Shown here piece after piece: positions 27,727 to 43,020 of a stretch of 61,269 bases of DNA (the first letter of the stretch is position 1; each line of letters opens with the position of its first letter). Origin of the DNA: Thermococcus sp. LS1 (GTDB taxonomy: Archaea; Methanobacteriota_B; Thermococci; Thermococcales; Thermococcaceae). Below the pieces are notes generated by a model that saw only the letters and a list, made by a program, of their open reading frames with translations, was not told where the DNA came from and did not search any database. The stretch lies in contig NZ_SNUJ01000006.1 in assembly GCF_012027395.1 (NCBI RefSeq), positions 1 to 61,269 of the forward strand, given 5' to 3'. The position numbers and the translations under genes are program-made.

Positions 27727-28331
27727 TTCCTTTTGTTTTGTCATGTTTTCCACCCTATTCCTAGTACTGTGGAGGTAACTGTGGGACATCTATTGTAATT
27801 TACTAAACGAAAAGTGGATCCTAATAAGTAAAACAGGAAGAATACAAACAGGAAAACAAACCCGTGAATCCTCCAGTTCTCAGCTCTGGAATTATTCTAC
27901 CAGAAGCGCTTGTCTCCTCATCAATAGTCTCACTGCTGATTTTTATTACAGTCTAGTCAACTGCGATGAATTTCCTCTGTCCCTCTGAGTGCAAAGGGCT
28001 TTGGCTGATAAACTGCTTCTGCAAGCAGTATCGGGACGAAATCTTGAGTTGGATTTTTAAACTAGAACAGAGAGGTATAACTCATGCCAAAGACGAGAAA
28101 ACAGAAAATGAACTCGTTCAAGTTATTAAAATGCGGAAAAGTTAATGCTCCAATGCTTCTGCAAGCTAAGTGTTTTAAGGTTGAAATCACGTAATAGCTA
28201 ATTGGTTTCAGCCAGCATTTCTCTACGACATAACACCACTCACTACTTATACTGACAGTGTCTTTTCTTTGCAAAGTATATGTGACCTCTAGGTAGTCTA
28301 ATTAGAGTATGTTTTGGGTACTCTTTTGAGT
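27727..28331. other. 605-base AT-rich gap, mostly empty
   Basis: No recognisable gene. One 59-residue frame (27966-28145) is listed separately. The hairpin CTGCTT-CTGC-AAGCAG lies at 28013-28028, and its core GCTTCTGCAAGC recurs at 28155-28166. No tRNA, CRISPR or insertion sequence ends were seen. The region looks like decayed accessory DNA. Confidence 0.4.
27966..28145 (+). CDS. possible small Cys-containing protein
   Basis: A 59-codon frame from ATG to TAA: it begins MNFLCPSECKGLWL, has a second CxC (CFC), and continues with a helical, charged stretch (YRDEILSWIFKLEQRG). Composition is protein-like and the CxxxC/CxC pattern could bind metal. No Shine-Dalgarno motif; TATA-like TTTTTATTAC lies about 25 bases before the ATG. 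I do not recognise it, and it may be a gene fragment. Confidence 0.3.
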   Translation: MNFLCPSECKGLWLINCFCKQYRDEILSWIFKLEQRGITHAKDEKTENELVQVIKMRKS

Positions 28332-30068
28332 TTAGCGTTTGCCTCTTCTACGGAGAGTGGGATAGTGAGTGCTTTTATTGAGAGATGATCTACGATTTTG
28401 TGAACTTTGAAAAACTCTTGGAAGGACTTGACGGGAGGTTCTGATGTTTTGTCTCCTGTTCATCCATGAGCGGCGCACACTTTGCATTTTTGCCCCATCC
28501 GGCATAATGCTCTCTATTGTCTTTTCCAGTGCTGTTCCTTTGAATGCGTTCCTAAGGTGTCCCCAATTGAGTATGTAAGCTATTGATACCACAAATACAA
28601 CGATCATGAATGGGGTTATCTGGACAGCGTAGTAACTGTACTGACTCTTACCGCCTAAGAAATACATCAGGACATACATCACTATAATACTACTTCCCCC
28701 AAGGTACTCCAAGGCAAATTCAGTCCTATACTTTTTATGAACTAGGTAAATTCCTAGAAATCCTATAATAACAGCTAGATTCCACATAAACCAGTTAGTT
28801 TGAATCAGTATTCTGGGGTCGGAATATATCATAAACGGATTCTTATTAAAGAACCAGTTCCAAACTGGAGATGTAAAAGGGTGATCTCCTTTATAACTTA
28901 GGTGCCAACTAAAACTTGCCAATAGACCATCTTTCCACTCTTGGGGGCTTATGAATAAAAACACCGGAATGTTACCAATTGCAAATCCTACTGCTCCTAA
29001 CAGGAGGTATTTACTGATGTTCTTGATAAATGTTTTTATGGCCTCTGTTGTTGTTTTACTGGTTCTCCATGCTTTACTTAAGGCGAACAGTCCTATCCCA
29101 AGTCCAACAAATGCTCCGTTGAGTTTTACGGCTGTTGCGAATCCAGTGAAGAGGCTAGCATGTGTAAGATTGCGCTTGCTGAAGTAGTAAGCTACAAGGG
29201 CCATGAAAAAGGCCACGTATATATCGAGCATTGCAGTTGCCCCGAGCATTCTGAGGCCGGGATCAATGGCCGCGAGGGTGGCCGCAACACCTCCCCAGAA
29301 ATAACTCCCGGTGAGGTTTTTAACTGTGAATGCCAACAACACTATTATTGATAAGAATGATAAAAGGCTAGGGATTCTCCACGCGACAGGGCGATCCCCA
29401 AATACTAACATTGATAGCATTATGAAAGACTTCCCCAGAAATGGGTGCTCAAGGTTGTAGTATTTATCTATGCCAAACTTGTCTCCATATCTAAATCCCG
29501 GGCGTACATTAAAAATTTTTTCACCTTTCTTAAATACTGTTATAGTTGTGGTGCAAGTCTGATTATTATCCATTTTGTATTCTATAGTTTCCACTATGTC
29601 CTCAGGGGCAGTGATATTCCTGATGGCATCAACAAAAACGTTAAATTCATCTTCCGGAACATAATAATAGCGTCCATAGTTTATTTCTTGCCAGTCAAAG
29701 GCATATATATTTGAAAGTTTGTATTTTGAAATGACAGAATACACGTACTTATCATATTTTTCCCAATCGTACCAGTTGGGATCCACTGGTGTGTTTTCAG
29801 AGGTCGACTCAGGCATTCTTACAAAGACATTAACTCCATAGAAAGTCGCTATGTGGCTGGAATTTGGGGTATATGGAAGCTCAGTAACATGGAGAACTGT
29901 CAAGTTATTTTTATACAAATAATTTCTCGCTGCGTCTACGTACCAGACCTCATCACCTTTATAATCCTGAACTTTTTCTCCAGCTATATAGTTTGGCCAC
30001 AGACTTATGACGCTCGCAATGAGAAGAGAGACCAAGAAAATCGCAAATATTAGTCCTTCATCATCCAT
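28332..30068 (-). CDS. GT39/PMT-like integral membrane glycosyltransferase
   Basis: About 578 residues with roughly ten membrane helices. The first extracytoplasmic loop holds the acidic motif YKGDEVWYVDAAR, typical of GT-C enzymes that use dolichyl-phosphate sugars; a role in protein or lipid glycosylation is inferred. GGAGGAG precedes the ATG. The last 60 residues are unusually basic (RRSWMNRRQNIRTSR). Reading one frame over from the A5 run at 28487-28491 gives a more natural tail (KCAPLMDEQETKHQN) ending at a TAG at 28390, so a one-base frameshift, real or an error, is likely. AT-rich composition suggests transfer. Confidence 0.75.
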   Translation of the reverse strand: MDDEGLIFAIFLVSLLIASVISLWPNYIAGEKVQDYKGDEVWYVDAARNYLYKNNLTVLHVTELPYTPNSSHIATFYGVNVFVRMPESTSENTPVDPNWYDWEKYDKYVYSVISKYKLSNIYAFDWQEINYGRYYYVPEDEFNVFVDAIRNITAPEDIVETIEYKMDNNQTCTTTITVFKKGEKIFNVRPGFRYGDKFGIDKYYNLEHPFLGKSFIMLSMLVFGDRPVAWRIPSLLSFLSIIVLLAFTVKNLTGSYFWGGVAATLAAIDPGLRMLGATAMLDIYVAFFMALVAYYFSKRNLTHASLFTGFATAVKLNGAFVGLGIGLFALSKAWRTSKTTTEAIKTFIKNISKYLLLGAVGFAIGNIPVFLFISPQEWKDGLLASFSWHLSYKGDHPFTSPVWNWFFNKNPFMIYSDPRILIQTNWFMWNLAVIIGFLGIYLVHKKYRTEFALEYLGGSSIIVMYVLMYFLGGKSQYSYYAVQITPFMIVVFVVSIAYILNWGHLRNAFKGTALEKTIESIMPDGAKMQSVRRSWMNRRQNIRTSRQVLPRVFQSSQNRRSSLNKSTHYPTLRRRGKR

Positions 30069-30225
30069 TTAAACTCCTCCACATTTTTGATAGGGCCCAG
30101 TTGCACTAGTCACTCCTGTTTTTGTACCTTTAAATCCAATTTTCTATGTCTCAGTATCTTGTGCTTCTACAATGAAATTTAAAAAGTTTTTGATAAAAAA
30201 ATAAAATAATTACAACGCAATAACG

Positions 30226-30789
30226 TCACTCGATTATTGTTCCGTAAATTGTCGTGAAGTGGTCAGAGGATCCCCTTGATAACATGAATTTCCAAGTTCC
30301 ACTTCCAAGGTAAACTAGGGTTAACCTACCGACACCGGCGTCAAGAATCATGGTGTTTCCGGTCGTTGTTATGATCTCCTCATCATGAAAGATCCAAGTA
30401 CTTTCGACGAATGAGCGTGGGCCAGTACTTAGTATACTTTCTATTGTTTCTCCGTTTTTGACGACCACCAGTCGTCTTGTTCCGTCATCATATGTCTCGT
30501 CGTACCTAAAGTGCCACGTGCTTTGTGGGTTGAGCTCGGTTTCCCACACACTGTGGCTCATCCAGTTTTTGTCCACATATACTGTGTAGTGTTCAAGATG
30601 TTTGCCTGTAGTGTAACCACTCGAGTATGTAATGCTTATATGTTGAATGTAGGTCTTGTAGGTATATGGCACCGTGTCTGGGAGTTGCTCATGTAAACCT
30701 ATTCCACCTATGCATCCCGACGTTGCGACGACGAGCATCGCAACGAGTATAGGCAGGATCAATATAGGCAGTATGATACCGCGCCTCAT
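30226..30789 (-). CDS. predicted lipoprotein of unknown function
   Basis: 187 residues. The start MRRGIILPILILPILVAML is a signal sequence ending in a lipobox-like ATSGC (Cys near residue 27), so the protein is probably lipid-anchored outside the cell. The rest is beta-rich with many aromatic and Thr residues; no family recognised. No Shine-Dalgarno motif; TTTTTTAAATTT about 27 bases upstream indicates a leaderless mRNA. It lies downstream of nothing co-directional at close range. Confidence 0.65.
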   Translation of the reverse strand: MRRGIILPILILPILVAMLVVATSGCIGGIGLHEQLPDTVPYTYKTYIQHISITYSSGYTTGKHLEHYTVYVDKNWMSHSVWETELNPQSTWHFRYDETYDDGTRRLVVVKNGETIESILSTGPRSFVESTWIFHDEEIITTTGNTMILDAGVGRLTLVYLGSGTWKFMLSRGSSDHFTTIYGTIIE

Positions 30790-30926
30790 GATTATATCTT
30801 ATGACAAAGAAATTTAAAAAATTTTTGGTAAAATGTCTAGGAGGTGTAGAGGAAATTAAAACCAATATCTTAAGCTTAAAATAAAAGCGAGAATAGGAGT
30901 AGAAACAGTGCCATAATTTATTGAGA

Positions 30927-30939
30927 GATACTACCTTTA
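30927..30939 (+). repeat. 13-base match to the island repeat
   Basis: GATACTACCTTTA here is identical to 37773-37785, the left edge of the 19-base direct repeat near the nuclease island. It lies in the 299-base gene-free gap 30790-31088, which otherwise shows nothing recognisable. Confidence 0.4.
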
Positions 30940-31088
30940 GAAAAATGAAAAAAACTCGATACTCTTGGATTGAGATTGGAAATTGCATGCATCAATTTTC
31001 GCAATGTTGAGCATGAGGATTATAAAACGCTATGAACTCTGAAGAGAATGGCAATAAAGAAAAGTTTATCGAAAGTGTTTTCTTATCC

Positions 31089-33737: not shown

Positions 33738-34256
33738 ATGAGGATATTCATAACCGGCCCGGCAGGAGTTGGGAAGACAACGCTTGTGAGCAGAGTTGCC
33801 AGGGAAGTCGACCGCTGGGGCTACATCGTCGGCGGCATGATAACTCAAGAAGTAAGGGAGCGCGGTAGGAGAATGGGGTTCAAGATAACAGCCCTCGACA
33901 CGGGTGAGGAGGGAACCCTCGCATGGGTCGGAAACGGCCGGCCAAGGATAGGAAAATACGTAGTCTATGTTGACGAGCTCAACCGCGTTGGCGTTTCCGC
34001 GATAAGGAGAGCCTTAATCGAGGCCGACCTAATCGTCATAGATGAAATCGGCCCGATGGAGTATATGAGCGATGAGTTTGTACGGATTGTGGGAGAAGTC
34101 CTGAAGTCAGAAAAGCCGCTTCTGGCAGTGGTTCACAGACGCTTTGCGGACAAGTTCAGACCACTTGGAAAACTCTACACACTGAGCGTCGAGAACAGAA
34201 ACAGAGTCTTCACTGGGATAATGGATGAAGTTATGAAAGAGCTAAGGGAAGGTTAA
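33738..34256 (+). CDS. THEP1-type nucleoside triphosphatase
   Basis: 172 residues. Walker A GPAGVGKTT (7-15), Walker B VIDEIGPME, as in the archaeal/bacterial THEP1 NTPase family (homologous to human NTPCR), which hydrolyses all NTPs slowly; physiological role unknown. GGTGGTGACT supplies the ribosome site for the ATG at 33738; the 29-codon upstream extension would overlap mtnA and is rejected. Its TAA stop shares the TTAA at 34253-34256 with the convergent CBS gene. Confidence 0.9.
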   Translation: MRIFITGPAGVGKTTLVSRVAREVDRWGYIVGGMITQEVRERGRRMGFKITALDTGEEGTLAWVGNGRPRIGKYVVYVDELNRVGVSAIRRALIEADLIVIDEIGPMEYMSDEFVRIVGEVLKSEKPLLAVVHRRFADKFRPLGKLYTLSVENRNRVFTGIMDEVMKELREG

Positions 34257-34798
34257 AGGTTCACGGAGTCCTTGCAGTTCTCGCATACCCACTTTTCGTC
34301 GCCTTCGATGTAGACCCTGTAGAGCGAACCGTACTGGCCGCAGAGCTCGCAGATTCCATAGACGTCTGTCTCTGGCTCGGGCTCCTCCTCAGCCGCCTCC
34401 TCAGCTTCGCTGGCATAGGTATTGAGCGCCGCGAGAAGGTCCGCAGCAGTTACGAACCCTATCGGCTTTCCAAAGCGGGTAACGAGGAGCCTCCTTATGC
34501 CCTTGTCCATCATCTTGTCGATGGCATCCTGTACCTCGTAGTCATCCTCGATTGTTACGGGGTTCTTGGTCATTACTTCCTCGACTTTAACGTCCTTGGG
34601 ATCCCTACCTTTTGCCACGACCTTGTCGAGTATGTCCCTGTCGGTTATTATTCCAACGATTTCGTCGTCCTTGACGACGACAGCGCTTCCGACCTTGTTT
34701 CTTGAGAGGATTCTGGCGATTCTGTGGACTGTGTCGTCTGGTTTGACTATGACTGCCTTCCTTTTAACCACTTGTCCCACGGCGATTCTCGGTGCCAT
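34253..34798 (-). CDS. CBS-pair protein with C-terminal zinc ribbon
   Basis: 181 residues. Two CBS domains (about 10-65 and 75-130; GIITDRDILDKV and GFVTAADLLAAL are typical) bind adenine nucleotides, followed by an acidic linker and a zinc ribbon CELCGQ...CENC (about 153-177). Probably a sensor or regulator of energy charge; partner unknown. Stop overlaps the THEP1 stop within TTAA. Confidence 0.85.
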   Translation of the reverse strand: MAPRIAVGQVVKRKAVIVKPDDTVHRIARILSRNKVGSAVVVKDDEIVGIITDRDILDKVVAKGRDPKDVKVEEVMTKNPVTIEDDYEVQDAIDKMMDKGIRRLLVTRFGKPIGFVTAADLLAALNTYASEAEEAAEEEPEPETDVYGICELCGQYGSLYRVYIEGDEKWVCENCKDSVNL

Positions 34799-34847
34799 TT
34801 TACCACCTCGCTAACGGGGGTTAGAGAGGAAACTTAAAAACCTTTCC

Positions 34848-35486
34848 TCAGCGCCTGCGCTCCAAAAGATACGAGACGAGGAGAAACGTTAAGATGAACG
34901 CCGCAAGGGAGAGCACTACTGGAAGGACCGAAGCAGAAGTCTGTATTAATGGTGTGGTAGTTGTTCCCTGCGTGGTGTTGGCTGTGAGCACGGTTATTTC
35001 CCTGCCCGCTTCCATCACGGCAAAGTTCCCCGATTGAGTCGTATTGCTATAGGTTGGTATGTCCTTTGGACTCAGCAAGTCCGTTGAGGCCTTGTAGACG
35101 CCGGCCGCCATCATTCCCGCAATGGCCAAACTTATCACGTGGAGCCTCTCAAAGCCGGGCACGGCCTTCTTCTTAACTTTGGCCACGCTCTTCCTGGGAA
35201 CAAGCAGAATGGGTCTGTCTGAAGCACTGTACAGCTTTACCTCCTGCAAACGCTTGCCGTACTTCTTGCCAGCGACCTCAACAAGCCCCACCTTGAGCAT
35301 CTTGTCGATATGGTACGAGACTGTTGAGATGGGAAGGTTCAGCTCCCTCGCTATCTCGCTCATCGAAAGGGCCCTATCTTCCAGCAGGTGAAGGATGGCT
35401 ATAGCTTTATCGTTCATTAGAATCTGAGCAAGCTCTTTTGCTCTCTCATCGTGTATGTCTATGGTCTCATAGTCCAAGGGAGCCAC
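34848..35486 (-). CDS. membrane-anchored ArsR-type winged-helix protein
   Basis: 212 residues. An N-terminal winged helix (about 18-85: LSMSEIARELNLPISTVSYHIDKML is the recognition helix region, quoted here as SEIARELNLP and STVSYHIDKML) is followed by a basic linker, a membrane helix near 115-135, a Thr-rich extracytoplasmic loop and a second helix near 188-208. The arrangement suggests a membrane-tethered transcription regulator. Signal and targets unknown. Confidence 0.75.
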   Translation of the reverse strand: MAPLDYETIDIHDERAKELAQILMNDKAIAILHLLEDRALSMSEIARELNLPISTVSYHIDKMLKVGLVEVAGKKYGKRLQEVKLYSASDRPILLVPRKSVAKVKKKAVPGFERLHVISLAIAGMMAAGVYKASTDLLSPKDIPTYSNTTQSGNFAVMEAGREITVLTANTTQGTTTTPLIQTSASVLPVVLSLAAFILTFLLVSYLLERRR

Positions 35487-35588
35487 CTACGGAGAATACG
35501 GTGGGCGAATATTAAAGCTTTTCACAGCTTCAAACTGAGTTGAAGTCAATCCAGAAAAGCGCGATAGTAAAAGGAAAGGAAGTCAAAT

Positions 35589-35864
35589 TCACGGCTTCTC
35601 GAGGATGATCTCGATGGTCGAGGTGTTGGCAGTCCTGCCGTCGGCAGTCGGAAGCTCCTCGGTACCGATCTTGATCTCCTTGACCCTGACCTCTGGGAGG
35701 AACCTGTTCCTGACGATCTCGGCGACGTCGACGGCCCTGCTGATGGCCCTACCGCGAGCCTTGACGCTGACCTCCTTAGCGCCCTCGTTGAACTGGGTTA
35801 TCACGGCGAGGACGTAGTTCATAACCGGCTTCTTTCCAATGTAGACAACATGCTCCTCTGCCAT
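35589..35864 (-). CDS. albA: Alba chromatin/RNA-binding protein
   Basis: 91 residues, the standard Alba length. The lysine pair in [12 protein letters not shown] (residues 11-12) is the nucleic acid contact site; [17 protein letters not shown] forms the long helix. Alba coats DNA and RNA in archaea. GGAGGTG precedes the ATG at 35864; the upstream ATG at 35897 is rejected. Confidence 0.97.
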
Positions 35865-36056
35865 CTTTGGCACCTCCAGGAATTTTGTCGTTAGCATCTC
35901 GAGGGATTTCGGTTAAATACTTTTCGGTCTTTCCTGACGTTATTGGACAGTCCTATGGCTTTAATGAATTTATCGAATGTCCATCTCTGCTCCTGCATGT
36001 TTCTGTTAAAGCAAAATGTTTTAAGCCGTAAGAATTGCCATAGACCTGGTGATAGG

Positions 36057-37412
36057 ATGGCCGTTCATCCGATTGATTATCGCTACGGTAGCGAGGAGAT
36101 GCGGAGAATTTGGGACGAGGAAAACAAGCTCCAGAAGCTCCTCGACGTTGAGGCTGCCTTGGCTAGGGCTCACGCCAAGCTTGGCAACATCCCCGAAGAG
36201 AGCGCCCGCGTTATTTCCGAGAGGGCTAACACTGAGCGGGTCAAGCTTGAGCGCGTCAAGGAGATAGAGAACGAGATACACCATGACATAATGGCCGTCG
36301 TTAAAGCCCTAAGTGAGGTCTGCGGCGAGCACGGCAAGTACGTTCATCTAGGTGCGACCTCAAACGATATCATCGACACCGCTAACGCTCTTCTCATCAA
36401 GGAGTCCATTGCGATAATCGAGAAGGATCTTAGGGAGCTCCGCTCAATCCTCAAGAAGCTCGCGGAGGAGCACAAGTACACGGTCTGCATCGGGAGAACC
36501 CACGGACAACATGCTGTTCCTACTACATACGGCATGAAGTTTGCCCTCTGGCTCGATGAGATACAGAGACACATAGACAGGATAGAGGAGCTGAAGGAAA
36601 GGGTTTTAGTTGGTCAGATAAGCGGTGCAGTTGGAACGATGGCGTCTTTCGGCGATAAGGGTCTCGAAATTCAGCGTCTCGTCATGGAGGATCTCGGTCT
36701 CAGGCCTGCCAGAATAAGCAGCCAGATAATCCAGCGCGACGTTTACGCGGAACTAATGATGGTTCTCGCGCTTATAGCTTCCACCCTCGACAAGATAGCC
36801 CTTGAAATCAGAAACCTTCAGAGAACTGAAATCCTCGAGGTGAGCGAGCCCTTCGGAAAGAAGCAGGTGGGCTCCTCGACAATGCCCCACAAGAGGAACC
36901 CCATACGGAGCGAGAAGGTGAGTGGCTTGGCGAGGGTTCTCTACTCCAACGTCATTCCTGCACTGCTCAACAACCCCCTATGGCACGAGAGGGATCTGAC
37001 GAACTCCTCTGTCGAGCGCGTTATCCTTCCTGAGAGCTTTGTTCTACTTGACGAGATGCTCAAGAGCATGAAGAAGGTTCTCTCGGGGCTGGAGTTCTTC
37101 CCGGAGAACATTAAGAGGAACCTCTACATGACTCACAACCTCATAATGGCCGAGCCGCTTATGCTCAAGCTTACTGAGAGGGGCATGGGAAGGCAGGAGG
37201 CGCATGAATTGGTGAGAGGACTGGCAATGAGGGCGTTCTACGAGAAGAGGGACCTCATGGAGATCGCAAAGGAGAGTGAAGAGGTCAGAAAGTTCCTCAG
37301 TGAGGAAGACTTTGAGAGCCTAACGCCGGAGAACTACATTGGTCTCGCGCCGCAGATAGTTGATAACGTAATTGCCTATATAGAGGAGAAAGAGCGAAAA
37401 GAAGGGCTGTGA
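36057..37412 (+). CDS. purB: adenylosuccinate lyase
   Basis: 451 residues. Cleaves SAICAR and adenylosuccinate in purine synthesis. Fumarase-superfamily signatures: GATSNDI, RTHGQHA and GSSTMPHKRNP (with the catalytic Ser loop). CTGGTGATAGG directly precedes the ATG at 36057; 38 upstream codons in the open frame have no support. Partner enzyme PurA is at 55.1 kb. Confidence 0.96.
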   Translation: MAVHPIDYRYGSEEMRRIWDEENKLQKLLDVEAALARAHAKLGNIPEESARVISERANTERVKLERVKEIENEIHHDIMAVVKALSEVCGEHGKYVHLGATSNDIIDTANALLIKESIAIIEKDLRELRSILKKLAEEHKYTVCIGRTHGQHAVPTTYGMKFALWLDEIQRHIDRIEELKERVLVGQISGAVGTMASFGDKGLEIQRLVMEDLGLRPARISSQIIQRDVYAELMMVLALIASTLDKIALEIRNLQRTEILEVSEPFGKKQVGSSTMPHKRNPIRSEKVSGLARVLYSNVIPALLNNPLWHERDLTNSSVERVILPESFVLLDEMLKSMKKVLSGLEFFPENIKRNLYMTHNLIMAEPLMLKLTERGMGRQEAHELVRGLAMRAFYEKRDLMEIAKESEEVRKFLSEEDFESLTPENYIGLAPQIVDNVIAYIEEKERKEGL

Positions 37413-37775
37413 GGCTTTAATTTCTTGCCTCTTATCCTCTACATCGTTTTTGTTGTTTTGTCCACTTCGTCGGATTCATCTCTCAAATTTTTGGGCGAAT
37501 TGTTACTTTTAATTATGGTAATTTTTATGCTTTTTATTCAAGTTCTATTTATGCCGAAATCTCATTATGAATTTGATTCTTGTTTATATGGCTCAAAAAT
37601 CACTCTTTAAAATATTAAAAAATCCAGATTTTTAACTTTTTATTAGCGTAATTTTCGCAACGATTTCTGGTGTGGTAAGATGTGTGGCTGACGTATGCCG
37701 ATGAAGGAAGTTTGTTCCCTACCAATGCCGTCCTTGAGTCTAGTTCACCCGTAGTCTCCACCGACTGGAATTGAT

Positions 37776-37794
37776 ACTACCTTTAATTGTAACC
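37776..37794 (+). repeat. 19-base direct repeat, left copy
   Basis: ACTACCTTTAATTGTAACC, identical to 39443-39461. The two copies lie 1667 bases apart and enclose the remnant and the two-gene nuclease operon. Flanking bases differ on both sides. Possible target-site or attachment-site duplication. Confidence 0.6.
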
Positions 37795-37962
37795 AACTTT
37801 TGGTCTGTAGAAGCCCGATCTTATCGATAAAAATCCCTGATTCAGAAAGAAGGGTGTCCATGGTTACACCATCATGCCCGATTGGGAGGGATAGTCTGGC
37901 TATATAGATATTTAGTTGTGTTATCTATTATCTTTCCTAAGTACATCATGATCATTTTATTT

Positions 37963-38134
37963 TTAGCTCATGGCAGCTGTAACTTTGTTTCGGAGCTGGG
38001 ATGCAAATTGGAGAGTTTTTGACTCCTCCAACACCTTATACTCCACGGCAGATGATTATCACTTCAACCTGTCTTGGCATTTGTGTATTCAGTCCCATCC
38101 ATATCCCCAGAATAACTGCCGTTTCAGATAGCAC
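37963..38134 (-). pseudogene. short decayed coding remnant
   Basis: Starting from a GTG at 38134, a protein-like frame (ETAVILGIWMGLNTQMPRQV, then EVIIICRGV) reaches a TAA near 38043; one frame over, it continues as EYKVLEESKTLQFASQL and ends at TAA 37965-37963. Joining the two across a single-base shift gives about 58 residues. I do not recognise the family. The call rests on amino acid composition alone. Confidence 0.3.
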
Positions 38135-38285
38135 GGGCGGCCCTTAACTAAAACAAAGCTTTAAGCATGTAGGCGAGCCTCCCTATACAGTGCACTCATC
38201 GGCCGATCTATTTCTGCCTCATGTTAATGCTCAGGAATGTCCACGAATTTTAGATATAAGGTACATTATATGACAATTATGTATA

Positions 38286-39071
38286 GTGGTAAAATTAACA
38301 AAGTTTAAAAAGACAGGAACATTATTGGTCATGGGGAGAGATATGTGTGGAGCATATAATTTGACCAAACATGAAAGTCTCTATCTGAACCTTACCCCTT
38401 GGGCAGGAGATGATATATTGAAGCCCTTTCGATGGTACTACTCGAAACAGCTCAGAATTGGGGGATTAAATCCAAGAACCGCTGCCATTTTATTAACACG
38501 AGCAGAGACAGGAGCTGATACATATACCACAGCAATATACTTGAGTCATACTCTGAAAGCAAAGCTAACAAGTCTTCAGTCCATAGCATCATGGAAACGC
38601 CAAATAACCGCAGAGTACATAGTTAAAACTGTAAGAAAAACACCCAAATCACTAACGCAGGAGGGTATTTTGGATGTGATAAAATCCGGAGTGAAGAATG
38701 CAGTCAATAGACTCAGTGAGATTTCGATTGATAACGTAAAGTCAAAGGTGCCTCACTGGTTAATAAAAACACACATTTCTAAGGCACTTTCTGAGCATAC
38801 TATAAGCTTGATAGAATGGACATCCGGCAACAGTCGGCATGATATTTATCTGCCGCTAGAGAATTTAACGATTGAGGTAAAATATGTTTGGGGGTACACC
38901 ATAAATTACCGTGAGTATGCTGAGAGAAAAGGGGCCATCTATGTTATCGTGGGTGAAAATGTCTCATGGGAAAAACTCAAAAGAATAAGCGAAGCTAAAG
39001 GTATAAACTATATTTTGTATCGTGCAGATTACGGTAGATTCTTTTCAAATCTTAAGGATATGGGTGAGTGA
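38286..39071 (+). CDS. putative PD-(D/E)XK nuclease
   Basis: 261 residues, AT-rich, family not recognised. The C-terminal third has the pattern of a restriction-endonuclease fold: Asp186 in RHDIY, then a strand with Glu197-Val-Lys199 in LTIEVKYVWGY, then a helix and two strands (GAIYVIVGEN, INYILYRAD). The N-terminal two thirds are helical and could bind DNA or a partner. Start GTG at 38286 has no Shine-Dalgarno motif, but ATATAAG sits about 26 bases upstream, so the mRNA may be leaderless; an internal ATG (MGRDMCG) is an alternative. It is followed after one base by a second gene. No methyltransferase is present in the window. Confidence 0.55.
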   Translation: MVKLTKFKKTGTLLVMGRDMCGAYNLTKHESLYLNLTPWAGDDILKPFRWYYSKQLRIGGLNPRTAAILLTRAETGADTYTTAIYLSHTLKAKLTSLQSIASWKRQITAEYIVKTVRKTPKSLTQEGILDVIKSGVKNAVNRLSEISIDNVKSKVPHWLIKTHISKALSEHTISLIEWTSGNSRHDIYLPLENLTIEVKYVWGYTINYREYAERKGAIYVIVGENVSWEKLKRISEAKGINYILYRADYGRFFSNLKDMGE

Positions 39072-39072
39072 C

Positions 39073-39453
39073 ATGGTGGGGGGTGGTACTGTAAGGTATG
39101 CTCACCTCGGGCCTCTTGCGAGGGAAATACTCATGACAAAACTCCAACAGGCCGTTCTCCATCGGAATATGGTTCAGCCATTTTTCAGAGAAAACCAGAA
39201 AAATGGATACCTAGAACTGGTGATCCCTACTAACTGTCTCTCTCCACTGGAGAAATACGTTTTAGAAGAGGCTGGTTATCCGAAAAAGCCTGTGAGGCTT
39301 GGGGATAGCATTATCAGGGCGTTTGTAATAAATGTCCACCGCGTCAAACAGAATGATCCGGAGCTGTCAAAGGAGATAATTGATATCTACAACAAACGTC
39401 TAGAAGAGAGTTGTGTCGGTCCGTGCTACAAATATGCGGATGACTACCTTTAA
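39073..39453 (+). CDS. unknown partner of the putative nuclease
   Basis: 126 residues, no family recognised. A Gly-rich start (MVGGGTVRYAHLG), mixed alpha/beta middle and a C-terminal segment with CVGPC. GGGTGAG overlaps the upstream stop and the ATG is one base after it, so the two proteins are made together. Candidates include immunity/antitoxin, specificity subunit or a second nuclease subunit. Its stop codon lies inside the right copy of the 19-base repeat. Confidence 0.6.
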   Translation: MVGGGTVRYAHLGPLAREILMTKLQQAVLHRNMVQPFFRENQKNGYLELVIPTNCLSPLEKYVLEEAGYPKKPVRLGDSIIRAFVINVHRVKQNDPELSKEIIDIYNKRLEESCVGPCYKYADDYL

Positions 39454-39461
39454 TTGTAACC
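39443..39461 (+). repeat. 19-base direct repeat, right copy
   Basis: Identical to 37776-37794. It spans the last codons and TAA stop of the gene at 39073-39453. Confidence 0.6.
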
Positions 39462-39883
39462 TAATATTCGGTTCGAGATAGCTGACCTATCCGGCACTGA
39501 TTGTGGATTTTGCGAGATATTGAGGTTGCTGTGTACCGTCCTTCTGCCAATGTTCTGAATGGGTTCTTTTTGCCCAATAATTTCTTTCTGAAGGGGTAAA
39601 TTTTTTGAAATTTTTACTATTTTAAAAAGTTGTATTTTTCTTGCAAAATTATTGTAATTAAAATGTATCAAAAATCGAATAAAAAATTTAATCTTTAAGA
39701 TAGTTTAAATAACACTTTATAAATTTGTTTGATTTTATCTATTTCAAAAAGTAAAAATCTGCTGAAAAATTTGAGAGATCACTCGACACAAAAATTAGGC
39801 TTTCCTAAAAGAGGAAACAGGCATAAAACGCCCCCAATAATATGATACTCTAATAAAAGAAGGTTTTTCATCGAACAAACAGC
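39454..39883. other. 430-base very AT-rich gap
   Basis: No credible gene on either strand. The stretch 39590-39760 is very AT-rich with many A and T runs. A short minus-strand frame at 39450-39671 is low-complexity and rejected. Together with the gap at 37.4-38.3 kb it brackets the nuclease operon. Confidence 0.4.
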
Positions 39884-40240
39884 TTATGGACCTTCTTCAG
39901 CAATGTCCTTTGGGATCTCGTTGCCCTGAGGGAGGATTATCAGCTCTCTGCCCTCAACCAGCATCTGAGCAACTTTCTTTCTGGCCGAGCTCAGGGCTCT
40001 CCAGACTGTTCCTCTTGAAACACCCATTCGCTTTCCGGCCTCCTCCTGGGTCAACCCCTCAAAATCAACCAGCCTCAGGGCTTCAAACTCCTCATAAGTC
40101 ATGAAAATCGGTGGCTTGGGCTGTCCAAGGGGCGGCAGTGCAGGATAGAAATGTCTAACCTGAGGGATGAAGCCTATCATCCTCATCTTTCTTCTTCTGC
40201 CCCTTCCTCTTCCCCAACCGCGTCCCATTCCCATCGGCAT
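39884..40240 (-). CDS. DUF134 (UPF0251) helix-turn-helix regulator with Gly/Arg N-terminus
   Basis: 118 residues. The core (about 45-100: TYEEFEALRLVDFEGLTQEEA-type segment, then MGVSRGTVWRALSSARKKV) is a sigma-70-region-4-like HTH of the DUF134 family, often found beside NifX-family genes. The N-terminus MPMGMGRGWGRGRGRRRK is a Gly/Arg/Met module like the tails of the IssA-like proteins 2-4 kb away. An iron-box-like ATAGG-N4-CCTAT overlaps its TATA box, so it may be iron regulated or self-regulated. Near-leaderless start at 40240. Confidence 0.8.
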   Translation of the reverse strand: MPMGMGRGWGRGRGRRRKMRMIGFIPQVRHFYPALPPLGQPKPPIFMTYEEFEALRLVDFEGLTQEEAGKRMGVSRGTVWRALSSARKKVAQMLVEGRELIILPQGNEIPKDIAEEGP

Positions 40241-40267
40241 GATTATCAGTAGCCTTAAGGTAGCTTG

Positions 40268-40285
40268 GTTTATAGGTTTTCCTAT
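40268..40285 (-). promoter_or_regulatory. DUF134 promoter with iron-box-like palindrome
   Basis: Read on the minus strand, ATAGG-AAAA-CCTAT (40272-40285) runs into the TATA box CTATAAAC (40268-40275), about 30 bases before the ATG. The TAGG-N4-CCTA core and spacing equal those of the feo operator at 48450. Confidence 0.55.
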
Positions 40286-40346
40286 CCCCCAAAGCCGCTC
40301 AGTAATTGTTATAACTAATTTGCTCTACTCAGAAGTGGTGAGAAAA

Positions 40347-40805
40347 ATGGGATTTCGTTTAACTGAGAGAAAGATTGGCTGGCACAAGGACTTCGATAGC
40401 TCGCACTTTCTCGCTCTTCCCTATGGAAGCAAGTGCCTCAGAATTCACGGCCACACCTACAACGTTGACGTGGAGATATGGGGCGACGTCAACGAAAGCG
40501 GCATGATATTCGACTTCAACCACCTCAGCAATCTCATTAAGCTCCTGGACCACAGGATTCTTGTGAGTGAGGAGTGGGTTGTAGAAAGAAAAGACGGTCT
40601 GATAGTTATCGAAAAGAACGGCAAGCGTCTGGAGCTTCCCGAGAACGAAGCAGTCGTCCTTGATAAGCCCAACGTTACCGCGGAGTACATAGCCGAGTGG
40701 TTCGCGGAGAGGATAACTGAAAAAGCCGGGGACAACGTGAGAAAGATAAGAGTGAAAATCTGGGAAGATCCGAGGAGCTACGCAGAAGTAACACTGGAGC
40801 GTTAA
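40347..40805 (+). CDS. queD: 6-pyruvoyl-tetrahydropterin synthase/QueD family enzyme
   Basis: 152 residues. Zinc ligands His20 (DSSH), His34 and His36 in the CLRIHGH motif; Cys30 sits in the Cx3HGH arrangement of QueD (6-carboxy-tetrahydropterin synthase), which makes the precursor of archaeosine in tRNA. Other PTPS types acting in folate synthesis share the fold, so the exact product is open. GGTGAG precedes the ATG at 40347; the 60-codon upstream extension would cross the promoter of the divergent DUF134 gene and is rejected. Its TAA shares TTAA with the next, convergent gene. Confidence 0.85.
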   Translation: MGFRLTERKIGWHKDFDSSHFLALPYGSKCLRIHGHTYNVDVEIWGDVNESGMIFDFNHLSNLIKLLDHRILVSEEWVVERKDGLIVIEKNGKRLELPENEAVVLDKPNVTAEYIAEWFAERITEKAGDNVRKIRVKIWEDPRSYAEVTLER

Positions 40806-41377
40806 CAGGGATTCTTTCTTTTCTTCTCCGGCACGGGTGTCTCGATACCGCATTTTTCCCTCAGGTCTCTGAGGTGTTTTGCCGCCGTTGCTGCCAGCTC
40901 CTGGAAATACTCCTCCGGAAACGTTTCCTTTGCTTCGAGCGTTAGGCTGTGAATCAGCGTGAGGTACGCGTTGGCCATGTCACAGTCTTCGGATTCTGCT
41001 ATGTGTGGCATCATGTCCACCAAGTAACCTAGGAAGTTGTGAAAGATGTTGAGCCAGTCTCTCTCATAACCGTTCTCAATCAGCCAGCCCTTTAGGGTTA
41101 TGAAGATTTTCACCGACGGAATGATTACCTCCCGTTCACCGTACCTGCGGTACCTTATGAGCAGATACTGGAGGAGCGATATAATGAATCTTCCAACTAT
41201 TGCTCTCTCGCCACCGTTTTCTTCAACGAACCTCTGGAACTCCAGTAGGCCCTTGCCATCGCTTTTTTCAAACTTGGTGAGAAGTGGAGTGTAGGGAGTG
41301 GCGTACTGGGAGAAATCAACATCCTTTAACTCAGGAATCTCAGGGAATATCTTTACGACAGCTTCTTTAATGTTCAT
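40802..41377 (-). CDS. conserved protein of unknown function
   Basis: 191 residues, largely helical (GRFIISLLQYLLIRYRR, DWLNIFHNFLGYLVDMM), with a C-terminal Cys and basic tail. No membrane segments of full length and no family recognised. GGGTGAG precedes the ATG at 41377. The gene is convergent with queD (4-base stop overlap) and divergent from the PPC protein gene. Confidence 0.65.
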   Translation of the reverse strand: MNIKEAVVKIFPEIPELKDVDFSQYATPYTPLLTKFEKSDGKGLLEFQRFVEENGGERAIVGRFIISLLQYLLIRYRRYGEREVIIPSVKIFITLKGWLIENGYERDWLNIFHNFLGYLVDMMPHIAESEDCDMANAYLTLIHSLTLEAKETFPEEYFQELAATAAKHLRDLREKCGIETPVPEKKRKNPC

Positions 41378-41433
41378 TCTCTCACCCAAACTATTAAATC
41401 CTGCTTGTCTTATTAGTTTTGGGGGTGATAGTT

Positions 41434-41853
41434 ATGAGATTCTCAAGGGGGAGGAATTTTCTGTTCAGGGTTCCTGAGGGCAAGGAACTGCTGAGCTTCA
41501 TCAACGAATTTGCGAGAAAAAATAACGTTTTAATTGGGACGGTGAGTGCCATTGGAAGTCTCAGGAATCCCAAAATTGGCTACTTTGTGGAAACGGAAGG
41601 GCGGTACAAAGTTATTGAGCTGAAAGGCATCTACGAGCTCGTTTCACTCTCTGGGAACATAAGCCTTAAGGATGATGAACCCTTCGTCCACATCCACGTC
41701 GCACTCGGCGATTCGGAGGGGAGGCTCTGGGGCGGTCATCTCGTTGAAGGGGAAGTCTTTGTCGCGGAGGTTCACATCCAAGAGCTCCTAGGCGAGCCGC
41801 TTGAGAGGAAGCCCCAGGAGAGTGGGCTGGCACTGTGGGACGAAGAGTCTTAA
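41434..41853 (+). CDS. PPC/DUF296 domain protein
   Basis: 139 residues. A single plant-and-prokaryote-conserved domain: LIGTVSAIGSLRNPKIGY, then PFVHIHVALGD and WGGHLVEGEVF carrying the conserved His/Gly positions. Archaeal stand-alone members are trimers that may bind metal or DNA. GGGGGTGATAG precedes the ATG at 41434. The stop shares TTAA (41850-41853) with the convergent DUF998 gene. Confidence 0.85.
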   Translation: MRFSRGRNFLFRVPEGKELLSFINEFARKNNVLIGTVSAIGSLRNPKIGYFVETEGRYKVIELKGIYELVSLSGNISLKDDEPFVHIHVALGDSEGRLWGGHLVEGEVFVAEVHIQELLGEPLERKPQESGLALWDEES

Positions 41854-42431
41854 TTTTTCCTCTGCTTTTCTGTTTTGTAGAATTTTGCCCATAGCACTGT
41901 GTAGTGCCAGATTATAATCCCAAAAATTCCAATGAACTCTGCGATGGCCACACCTTCGAAATTCCTGAAGGCCCATCTCGCCAGAATCCACGCGACCACA
42001 AAGACGGTAACTGTAAAAATTCCGATATCCCCTCTTCCCTCAAGCCAGAGGCCGAGGCCGGCTATCAGAAGTCCTATGCTACCTGTTATGAAGAAACCCC
42101 AGCTGACGTAGTAGTGCGGATCTGTTCCCTCGGGAAAGAGGCCGATTCCAATCAGAAATAGGAGAGCGACAATGAATACTCCGGCTCCTACCTTCTCTAC
42201 TACGTTTCCGAGCTCGCTGAAGAGGCCGATCGTGTAGTATGTGCCCAAAATCGCAGTTGCAATGAGCGCAAGGTTCATCACCCAGTTGTAAGGTAACCCA
42301 ACTTTTTCCAAGGTTGCTTATGGCGTTCTCGGTAATCCGCCACAAGAGCGGTTGATGTATGCGGCAGCCCCTATACCTGCGAAGGCCACCACAGGGGCAA
42401 GGAGCCCGGAAACCAGTTCGAAACGGTTCAA
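41850..42431 (-). pseudogene. DUF998-like membrane protein with two compensating frameshifts
   Basis: The intact part from 42311 shows five to six membrane helices of a DUF998-like protein. Its natural N-terminus lies upstream in another frame: a TTG at 42431 behind GGGTGGG starts NRFELVSGLLAPVV and a first helix, one base is missing in a TTGG/TGG run near 42347 (NRSWWRITENAISNLG expected), and one extra A in GGAAAAAG near 42315 restores the frame. The 582-base total is a whole number of codons (194). This could be a true double mutation or two homopolymer errors; an error is more likely. Confidence 0.7.
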
Positions 42432-42473
42432 AGTCCCACCCAATAAAAAATAGGCAAAAGTGATTTTAAACTT

Positions 42474-42974
42474 TCACCAGCCGCCCCTGCCACGACCGTA
42501 GCCGCCTCCACCGCGGCCTCTTCCCATTTCACCGCCGGCTCCTCTTCCGCGGCCCATTCCTCTGCCCATGCCGCCACCGCGGCCGTAACCGGCTCCGTAG
42601 CCGCCTCCCATTCCACCGCCTTCGGGGCCCATGGTGGCGCCCGAAAGCTCGCCGCGGAGGAAGGCCTCAACGGCCTCGCGGACGGTCATGTTTGCCGGTG
42701 CCGAAACCATCCTTATCCCTGCTGCCTGAAGGACGCCGTAGGAATTCGGCCCGAACTGGCCGGCTATGACGACCTCTGCCCCCTGGTCAATGGCGAACTG
42801 TGCCGCCGTGACCCCGGCCCCCCTTGGCTGGGAGTAACCTGGGTTTGGAAGAACCTGAACGCCGGTTATCGCGCCGTTCTCGACGTCTACTATCGTGAAG
42901 GTCGGAGTCCTTCCAAAAGCGGGGTTCACCCCGTCATCAAGGCCCCCGTTAACCGTTGACACGATTATCCTCAT
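42474..42974 (-). CDS. issA: IssA-like NifX/NifB-fold protein with Gly/Arg-rich tail
   Basis: 166 residues. The NifX/dinitrogenase cofactor domain (about 1-110: MRIIVSTVNGGLDDGVNPAF, then VVIAGQFGPNSYGVLQAAGI) is followed by about 50 residues that are nearly all Gly, Arg, Met and Tyr (GRGGGMGRGMGRGRG). This matches in size and layout IssA of Pyrococcus furiosus, which stores iron and sulfide as thioferrate bound to its cationic tail. GGAGGTGGTAG sets the ATG at 42974. An iron-box variant TTAGG-N4-CCGAA sits just after the TATA box. The symbol is by analogy; either of two paralogues here could be the true counterpart. Confidence 0.75.
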   Translation of the reverse strand: MRIIVSTVNGGLDDGVNPAFGRTPTFTIVDVENGAITGVQVLPNPGYSQPRGAGVTAAQFAIDQGAEVVIAGQFGPNSYGVLQAAGIRMVSAPANMTVREAVEAFLRGELSGATMGPEGGGMGGGYGAGYGRGGGMGRGMGRGRGAGGEMGRGRGGGGYGRGRGGW

Positions 42975-42994
42975 CACTACCACCTCCGCTGAAA

Positions 42995-43020
42995 TTAGGA
43001 AAACCGAACTTAAAAAAGTT
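42995..43020 (-). promoter_or_regulatory. issA promoter with iron-box variant
   Basis: On the minus strand: TATA-like ACTTTTTTAAG (43009-43020), then TTCGG-TTTT-CCTAA (43008-42995), which differs by one base from the perfect TTAGG-N4-CCTAA repeat at feoA and has the same 4-base spacer and the same place directly after TATA. Confidence 0.6.

Follow-up and report, generated by a model that had tools for sequence, protein, structure and literature searches.

A nuclease-like gene and its partner beside the XerA/dif site of Thermococcus and related genera

In archaea, chromosome dimers are resolved by XerA acting at dif, and FtsK is absent. A XerA site of Pyrococcus abyssi has been tested in vitro, where XerA recombined dif without partners, and the same report assigns conserved flanks of ~23 bp to the dif sites of Thermococcales (PMC2958812). 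With regard to mobile nuclease genes, PD-(D/E)xK proteins make up one known class of homing endonucleases (PMC6083498), and for free-standing homing endonucleases double-strand break repair is known to start from a cut site at some distance (PMC2988022). Here, we describe a locus in Thermococcus sp. LS1 at which two genes, designated P1 and P2, directly adjoin dif, and we compare it with the corresponding loci of other Thermococcaceae. The whole stretch analysed, referred to as the window, comprises 61,269 nucleotides (contig NZ_SNUJ01000006.1). Genomes are labelled G, loci L and groups g where they have to be told apart, and loci with and without the cassette are called filled and empty.

The dif site and the elements around it

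The features of the locus are as follows (window coordinates).

37478-37510, plus strand: left arm of an outer inverted repeat, ATCTCTCAAATTTTTGGGCGAATTGTTACTTTT, ~65 bp past the purB stop codon (inverted-pair search)
37776-37794, plus strand: R element, left copy, ACTACCTTTAATTGTAACC; similarity to relatives reaches ~37821
38224-38248, no strand: left dif-flanking sequence of host type, TTAATGCTCAGGAATGTCCACGAAT (alignment of filled and empty genomes)
38249-38276, plus strand: XerA/dif site, with left arm 38249-38259 TTTAGATATAA, 6-bp spacer 38260-38265 GGTACA and right arm 38266-38276 TTATATGACAA
38277-38312, plus strand: cassette leader, TTATGTATAGTGGTAAAATTAACAAAGTTTAAAAAG, common to filled genomes of three genera
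38343-39071, plus strand: P1, 242 aa, PD-(D/E)xK-like, with D167/E178/K180 (open reading frame list and homologues)
39073-39453, plus strand: P2, 126 aa, of no known family, with its final codons and stop reaching into the right R
39443-39461, plus strand: R element, right copy, ACTACCTTTAATTGTAACC, the right border of the cassette
39747-39779, minus strand: right arm of the outer inverted repeat (inverted-pair search)

The dif site, which lies between the first 19-base repeat and P1 and had been overlooked in the preliminary description of this DNA, resembles the tested P. abyssi site (PMC2958812) and is the only above-threshold site in the 61-kb window (PWM score 36.4). It has the archaeal layout of 28 bp, with a 6-bp spacer between imperfect inverted repeats of 11 bp. 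Archaeal dif sites are expected once per chromosome, in the region of replication termination; a strict dif pattern matched once in this genome, whose assembly consists of 25 contigs, and a simple pattern was found in one place in most related genomes and in two in G003. The identification is further supported by two relatives: the dif of G104 has exactly the sequence tested for P. abyssi, and that of G036 coincides with the published terminus coordinate of T. nautili (772,784). The genome has one tyrosine recombinase gene by Pfam search, located on another contig and presumably xerA.

The preliminary description had pictured an AT-rich island of otherwise decayed DNA. The composition profile agrees with the first part (34-44% GC in the island and ~50% in the genes on either side), but not with the second: between the end of purB and dif the island can be aligned over 0.6-1 kb, at 71-78%, with the purB-DUF134 interval found at the syntenic position in other Thermococcus genomes. 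The island is the chromosome-dimer-resolution locus of a Thermococcus. A search of the conserved non-coding DNA for structured RNAs gave no Rfam match at E ≤ 1. A further low-GC stretch was seen at window positions 28000-31000 (37-46% GC, compared with 50-57% immediately downstream).

Nested repeats surround dif, namely the ~23 bp flanks, the 19-base R element and the outer inverted repeat. The outer pair, also missed previously, has two matches genome-wide, both at the dif locus, and was found in cassette-less relatives as well. We considered a free mobile element with these repeats as its ends, and rejected it because the repeats occur in empty loci and the matches in relatives represent the same syntenic locus. 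The two R copies are identical throughout their 19 bases, as had been reported, and are the only matches in the 2.0-Mb genome at ≤3 mismatches; Markov resamples of the island gave 0 such matches. In many empty loci, from several genera, R-like sequences occur within ~140-730 bp of dif, most of them with ≤3 mismatches and some with 4-5, the range in which chance matches begin. R is therefore a host feature that flanks dif in cassette-less genomes too, and the proposal that both 19-base repeats border a composite element holds for the right copy but not for the left, the true left border being dif. Every right copy with ≤4 mismatches is oriented outward. The left copies have this orientation in most lineages and are reversed in the clade of the window; reversed left copies were seen in the window, G001, G004, G013, G025, G032 and G035, and also in G015, G024 and G054. 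No report of the R element was found in the passages considered from papers on Thermococcales dif sites.

Several variants of the region were observed. A clade that has P2 and lacks P1 (L018, L019, L020, L023 and L026) carries a degenerate dif right arm, TTATAGGAAAA. The right arm of the window, TTATATGACAA, is the type that accompanies the cassette; four loci without an intact cassette (L081, L083, L084 and L027, in G011, G021, G009 and G010) have this arm followed by the canonical right flank, and these arms are possibly scars of a lost cassette. Directly left of dif, at about -450 to -3, a gene for a probable membrane protein of ~110 aa was observed in g29 and g30 (L063-L070 and L073); it was not seen in the window.

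Distribution, borders and transfer

The preliminary description had suggested looking for the gene pair in other Thermococcales. P2 was identified in 23 of 94 Thermococcaceae genomes (absent from 71) and appears intact in 19 and broken or partial in four by our reading of the loci. P1 or its remains occur in 10 of the 94, five intact and five broken or relics, and no intact P1 was found without an intact P2. Among 115 genomes of the phylum, only Thermococcaceae were positive for P1; a GTDB search gave one match, in a contig of a T. paralvinellae MAG, and no match was found in viral contigs. A single-sequence search with P2 in 101 relatives gave matches in its own genus alone.

In all 22 loci that could be judged, from three genera, P2 lies beside dif (G125, cut by a contig end, was left out), and P1, where present, lies between dif and P2. 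In g29 neither purB nor DUF134 was found near dif, and the cassette is still at dif. The borders became apparent from pairs of filled and empty genomes. G127 and its empty congener G129 are alike up to dif +22 (left arm, spacer and TTATAT) and then again from R onward, and the same pattern was observed for G126/G130, G120/G114 and G117/G114, where homology on the right resumes at or within ~15 bp of R. On the left, the junction falls inside the right arm of dif or directly behind it; on the right, it is R, immediately after P2. The cassette therefore replaced host DNA, a non-coding interval of ~240-390 bp, and was not simply added. However, the right half of dif is canonical in G034 and G036, two alleles that contain P2 (in G034 with a damaged start) together with P1 remnants, which means that not every such allele has the replaced right arm. 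At the right junction of the window, the C-terminus of P2 (ADDYL) runs into R (39443-39453), and the homologues of g30 end in EK just before R; this comparison indicates that the junction altered the C-terminus of the window protein.

Sequence comparison also revealed movement of the cassette between genera. The window and G127, which belong to different genera, share 85% DNA identity over 38238-39461, ending at the right R, and only one weak 50-bp match elsewhere in the compared stretch. Between the window and G128, synonymous differences per site were 0.30 for P1, 0.35 for P2 and 0.90 (saturated) for purB. With purB saturated at synonymous sites and the cassette 85% identical across genera, the cassette must have moved horizontally. 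In the P2 tree the window sequence grouped with g30 (90/84) and that of G030 with g29 (98/99), and a single clade for all genus-1 P2 sequences was rejected (p 2e-6); when G030 was left out, the window P2 was not excluded from its own genus (tree test, p 0.15). In the tree of the right-flanking PTPS gene, the window clustered with most of its own genus (97/97). Transfer thus took place with replacement of the recipient allele, as is characteristic of homing endonucleases.

Besides the loci with intact and with broken or relic P1, the genomes include loci with P2 only, with P2 relics and without either gene, so that the full, decayed, partner-only and empty stages are all visible among sequenced genomes. 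The locus looks like a natural invasion of a chromosome-maintenance site by a nuclease cassette across genera. Its patchy presence, horizontal transfer and repeated decay of P1 agree with the earlier idea of a selfish module. Nothing was found that points to anti-virus defence, the other role then considered; neither PADLOC (up to E 10) nor PHROGs gave a match.

The two predicted proteins

P1 and P2 are coupled genes on the same strand, as had been described, with a gap of 1 nt between them. P1 might begin at GTG 38286 (261 aa) or at ATG 38343; the latter is most likely the start, because G030 has stop codons upstream and GGGGAG precedes the ATG. The leader contains a TATA-like sequence, TTTAAAAA, at 38304-38311, a putative promoter.

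P1 had been noted for a D-(10)-ExK pattern, which is present with this spacing (Asp186/Glu197/Lys199 counted from GTG 38286). When these residues, corresponding to D167/E178/K180 from ATG 38343, were checked for conservation, they proved invariant in all five intact homologues. The protein has no Pfam or NCBIfam match above cut-off, with weak DpnII-MboI matches in Pfam below it, and none whatever in PADLOC or PHROGs. In the AlphaFold2 model built from five sequences (pLDDT 73.8, pTM 0.77), the N-terminal half is helical and the C-terminal elements follow the order helix-strand-strand-strand-helix-strand-helix-strand; the second strand carries D167 and the third E178/K180. This order fits PD-(D/E)xK proteins, model confidence being low in that part. 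The fold search gave no PDB or viral match at E ≤ 0.001. The suggestion of a nuclease is thus supported by the order of elements and the invariant residues, but not by a fold match. Neither of the two findings named beforehand as refuting it, loss of these residues or a predicted structure that lacks a nuclease fold, was observed, although the structural check is weak.

P2 likewise remains a protein of no known family, with no Pfam or NCBIfam match above cut-off and none in PADLOC or PHROGs. No methyltransferase was recognisable by eye among the open reading frames of 34000-43000, in line with the preliminary description; given the lack of a cognate methyltransferase there and of a family match for P2, we agree that a classic restriction pair is unlikely. 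The AlphaFold2 model of P2 (19 sequences, pLDDT 85.3) has the order helix-strand-strand-helix-strand-strand-helix-helix, and LAGLIDADG proteins make up 18 of its best 50 PDB matches (counted by eye, all matches at E 0.29-0.61). The LAGLIDADG motif is absent, and none of the 19 members has a LAGLIDADG Pfam match. We therefore rejected P2 as a LAGLIDADG enzyme, the fold matches being weak and the motif missing; at most, these matches hint that P2 may bind DNA.

Between genomes without a working P1, the dN/dS of P2 is 0.14-0.29. P2 is under purifying selection in the absence of P1. G118/G123 and G126/G132 have lost P1, and in them the shared leader is followed directly by P2.

Possible explanations and comparison with known systems

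Tentatively, we favour the explanation that P1 and P2 form a small selfish cassette, homing-like and targeted to dif, that consists of a nuclease and a DNA-binding or immunity partner. We infer that P1 would be a PD-(D/E)xK endonuclease that cuts cassette-less chromosomes between dif and R or in the right half of dif. The break would be repaired by copying the cassette, with two short shared sequences as anchors, dif at the left end and R at the right. The copied allele would bring the other right arm and the leader, so that the target is lost while dif still works for XerA. P2, expressed from the same promoter as P1, would bind DNA as a partner of P1, repressing P1 and/or protecting dif. As targets run out, P1 would decay and P2 would be kept, either as a guard against re-invasion or because it had become useful at dif. 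Break repair anchored on dif and R, as proposed here, would account for where the borders lie, why host DNA was replaced, how the cassette was transferred and why P1 was lost. On the other hand, in transfers between genera dif and part of R would be the only shared anchors, which is very little sequence and counts against homing, as does the tree test in which the window P2 by itself was not excluded from its own genus. Purifying selection on P2 without P1 is not expected for a purely selfish element; left unexplained by a homing-like cassette, it is the strongest point for the rival proposal that P2 helps XerA.

According to this proposal, which we consider unlikely, P2 (together with P1 where present) is an accessory module of dif whose alleles, being useful, spread through ordinary recombination. 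P2 would bind the dif flank, the leader or R and direct dimer resolution in the manner of bacterial FtsK, and P1 would trim or resolve terminus DNA. In addition to the selection on P2, its strict linkage to dif and the fact that in G118/G123 and G126/G132 it comes right after the shared leader argue for such a role. However, the absence of P2 from 71 of the 94 family genomes implies that it is not generally needed, XerA of P. abyssi works without partners in vitro (PMC2958812), and repeated P1 decay and transfer between genera look selfish. A bolder version, which appears distinctly unlikely, would make P2 the archaeal stand-in for FtsK at dif, binding the dif flank or R and governing XerA: a nuclease homing into dif would have brought it in and spread it, and a selfish element would have been domesticated into chromosome segregation. 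Being restricted to dif, under selection and situated between conserved flanks, the P2 family is a concrete candidate for controlling XerA/dif.

We regard it as improbable that, in the manner of IMEX, the host XerA inserted a circular P1-P2 element into dif through a crossover at the spacer edge and that this element later lost its second site. Bacterial elements that exploit Xer recombination are known (PMC5357621), the left junction coincides with the region of Xer crossover (spacer/right arm), and the left arm and spacer are of host type and the right arm of cassette type. However, an insertion of this kind fails because the second Xer site is missing: even at a low threshold, the window and each of the loci of ten genus-1 relatives contained one dif-like site, and R, the right border, does not score as dif. 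Nor does simple insertion explain the loss of the host DNA that lay between dif and R.

Toxin-antitoxin pairs usually occur at many sites and on plasmids. A pair made up of a general toxin nuclease (P1) and its antidote (P2), kept at dif by chance or linkage, is likewise improbable: the genes are 1 nt apart, all five intact P1 genes are accompanied by an intact P2 and P2 often stands alone, but the pair is confined to dif in three genera with fixed borders, an address that an ordinary toxin-antitoxin pair leaves unexplained, and five intact P1 genes are few, such pairing arising by chance at ~0.3 by our estimate (intact P2 in 17 of 21 loci).

Compared with the archaeal Xer/dif system, the window site shares the 11-6-11 layout, the sequence and the conserved flanks of Thermococcales dif, whereas cassette sequence has taken the place of its right arm and right flank; the passages considered on that system (PMC2958812) mention no genes at dif, and here the cassette genes adjoin it. 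XerS/difSL of streptococci (PMC2958812, PMC5357621) likewise has a gene beside dif in the terminus region; P1 and P2, however, match no tyrosine recombinase family, and the tyrosine recombinase gene of this genome is on another contig. Like IMEX, the cassette is located at dif with its left junction at the Xer crossover region, but it has one dif and not two, is 1.2 kb in size, replaces host DNA and has R as its right border. P2 has the same order of helices and strands as LAGLIDADG endonucleases, without their motif and without a match to them in Pfam. In contrast to the T4 seg genes, examples of free-standing homing endonucleases and intronless homing (PMC2988022), the site occupied is an archaeal chromosome-resolution site, the partner outlives the nuclease and the activity of P1 is putative; with them the cassette shares a nuclease-like gene, transfer and decay, and it likewise replaces flanking DNA of the recipient.
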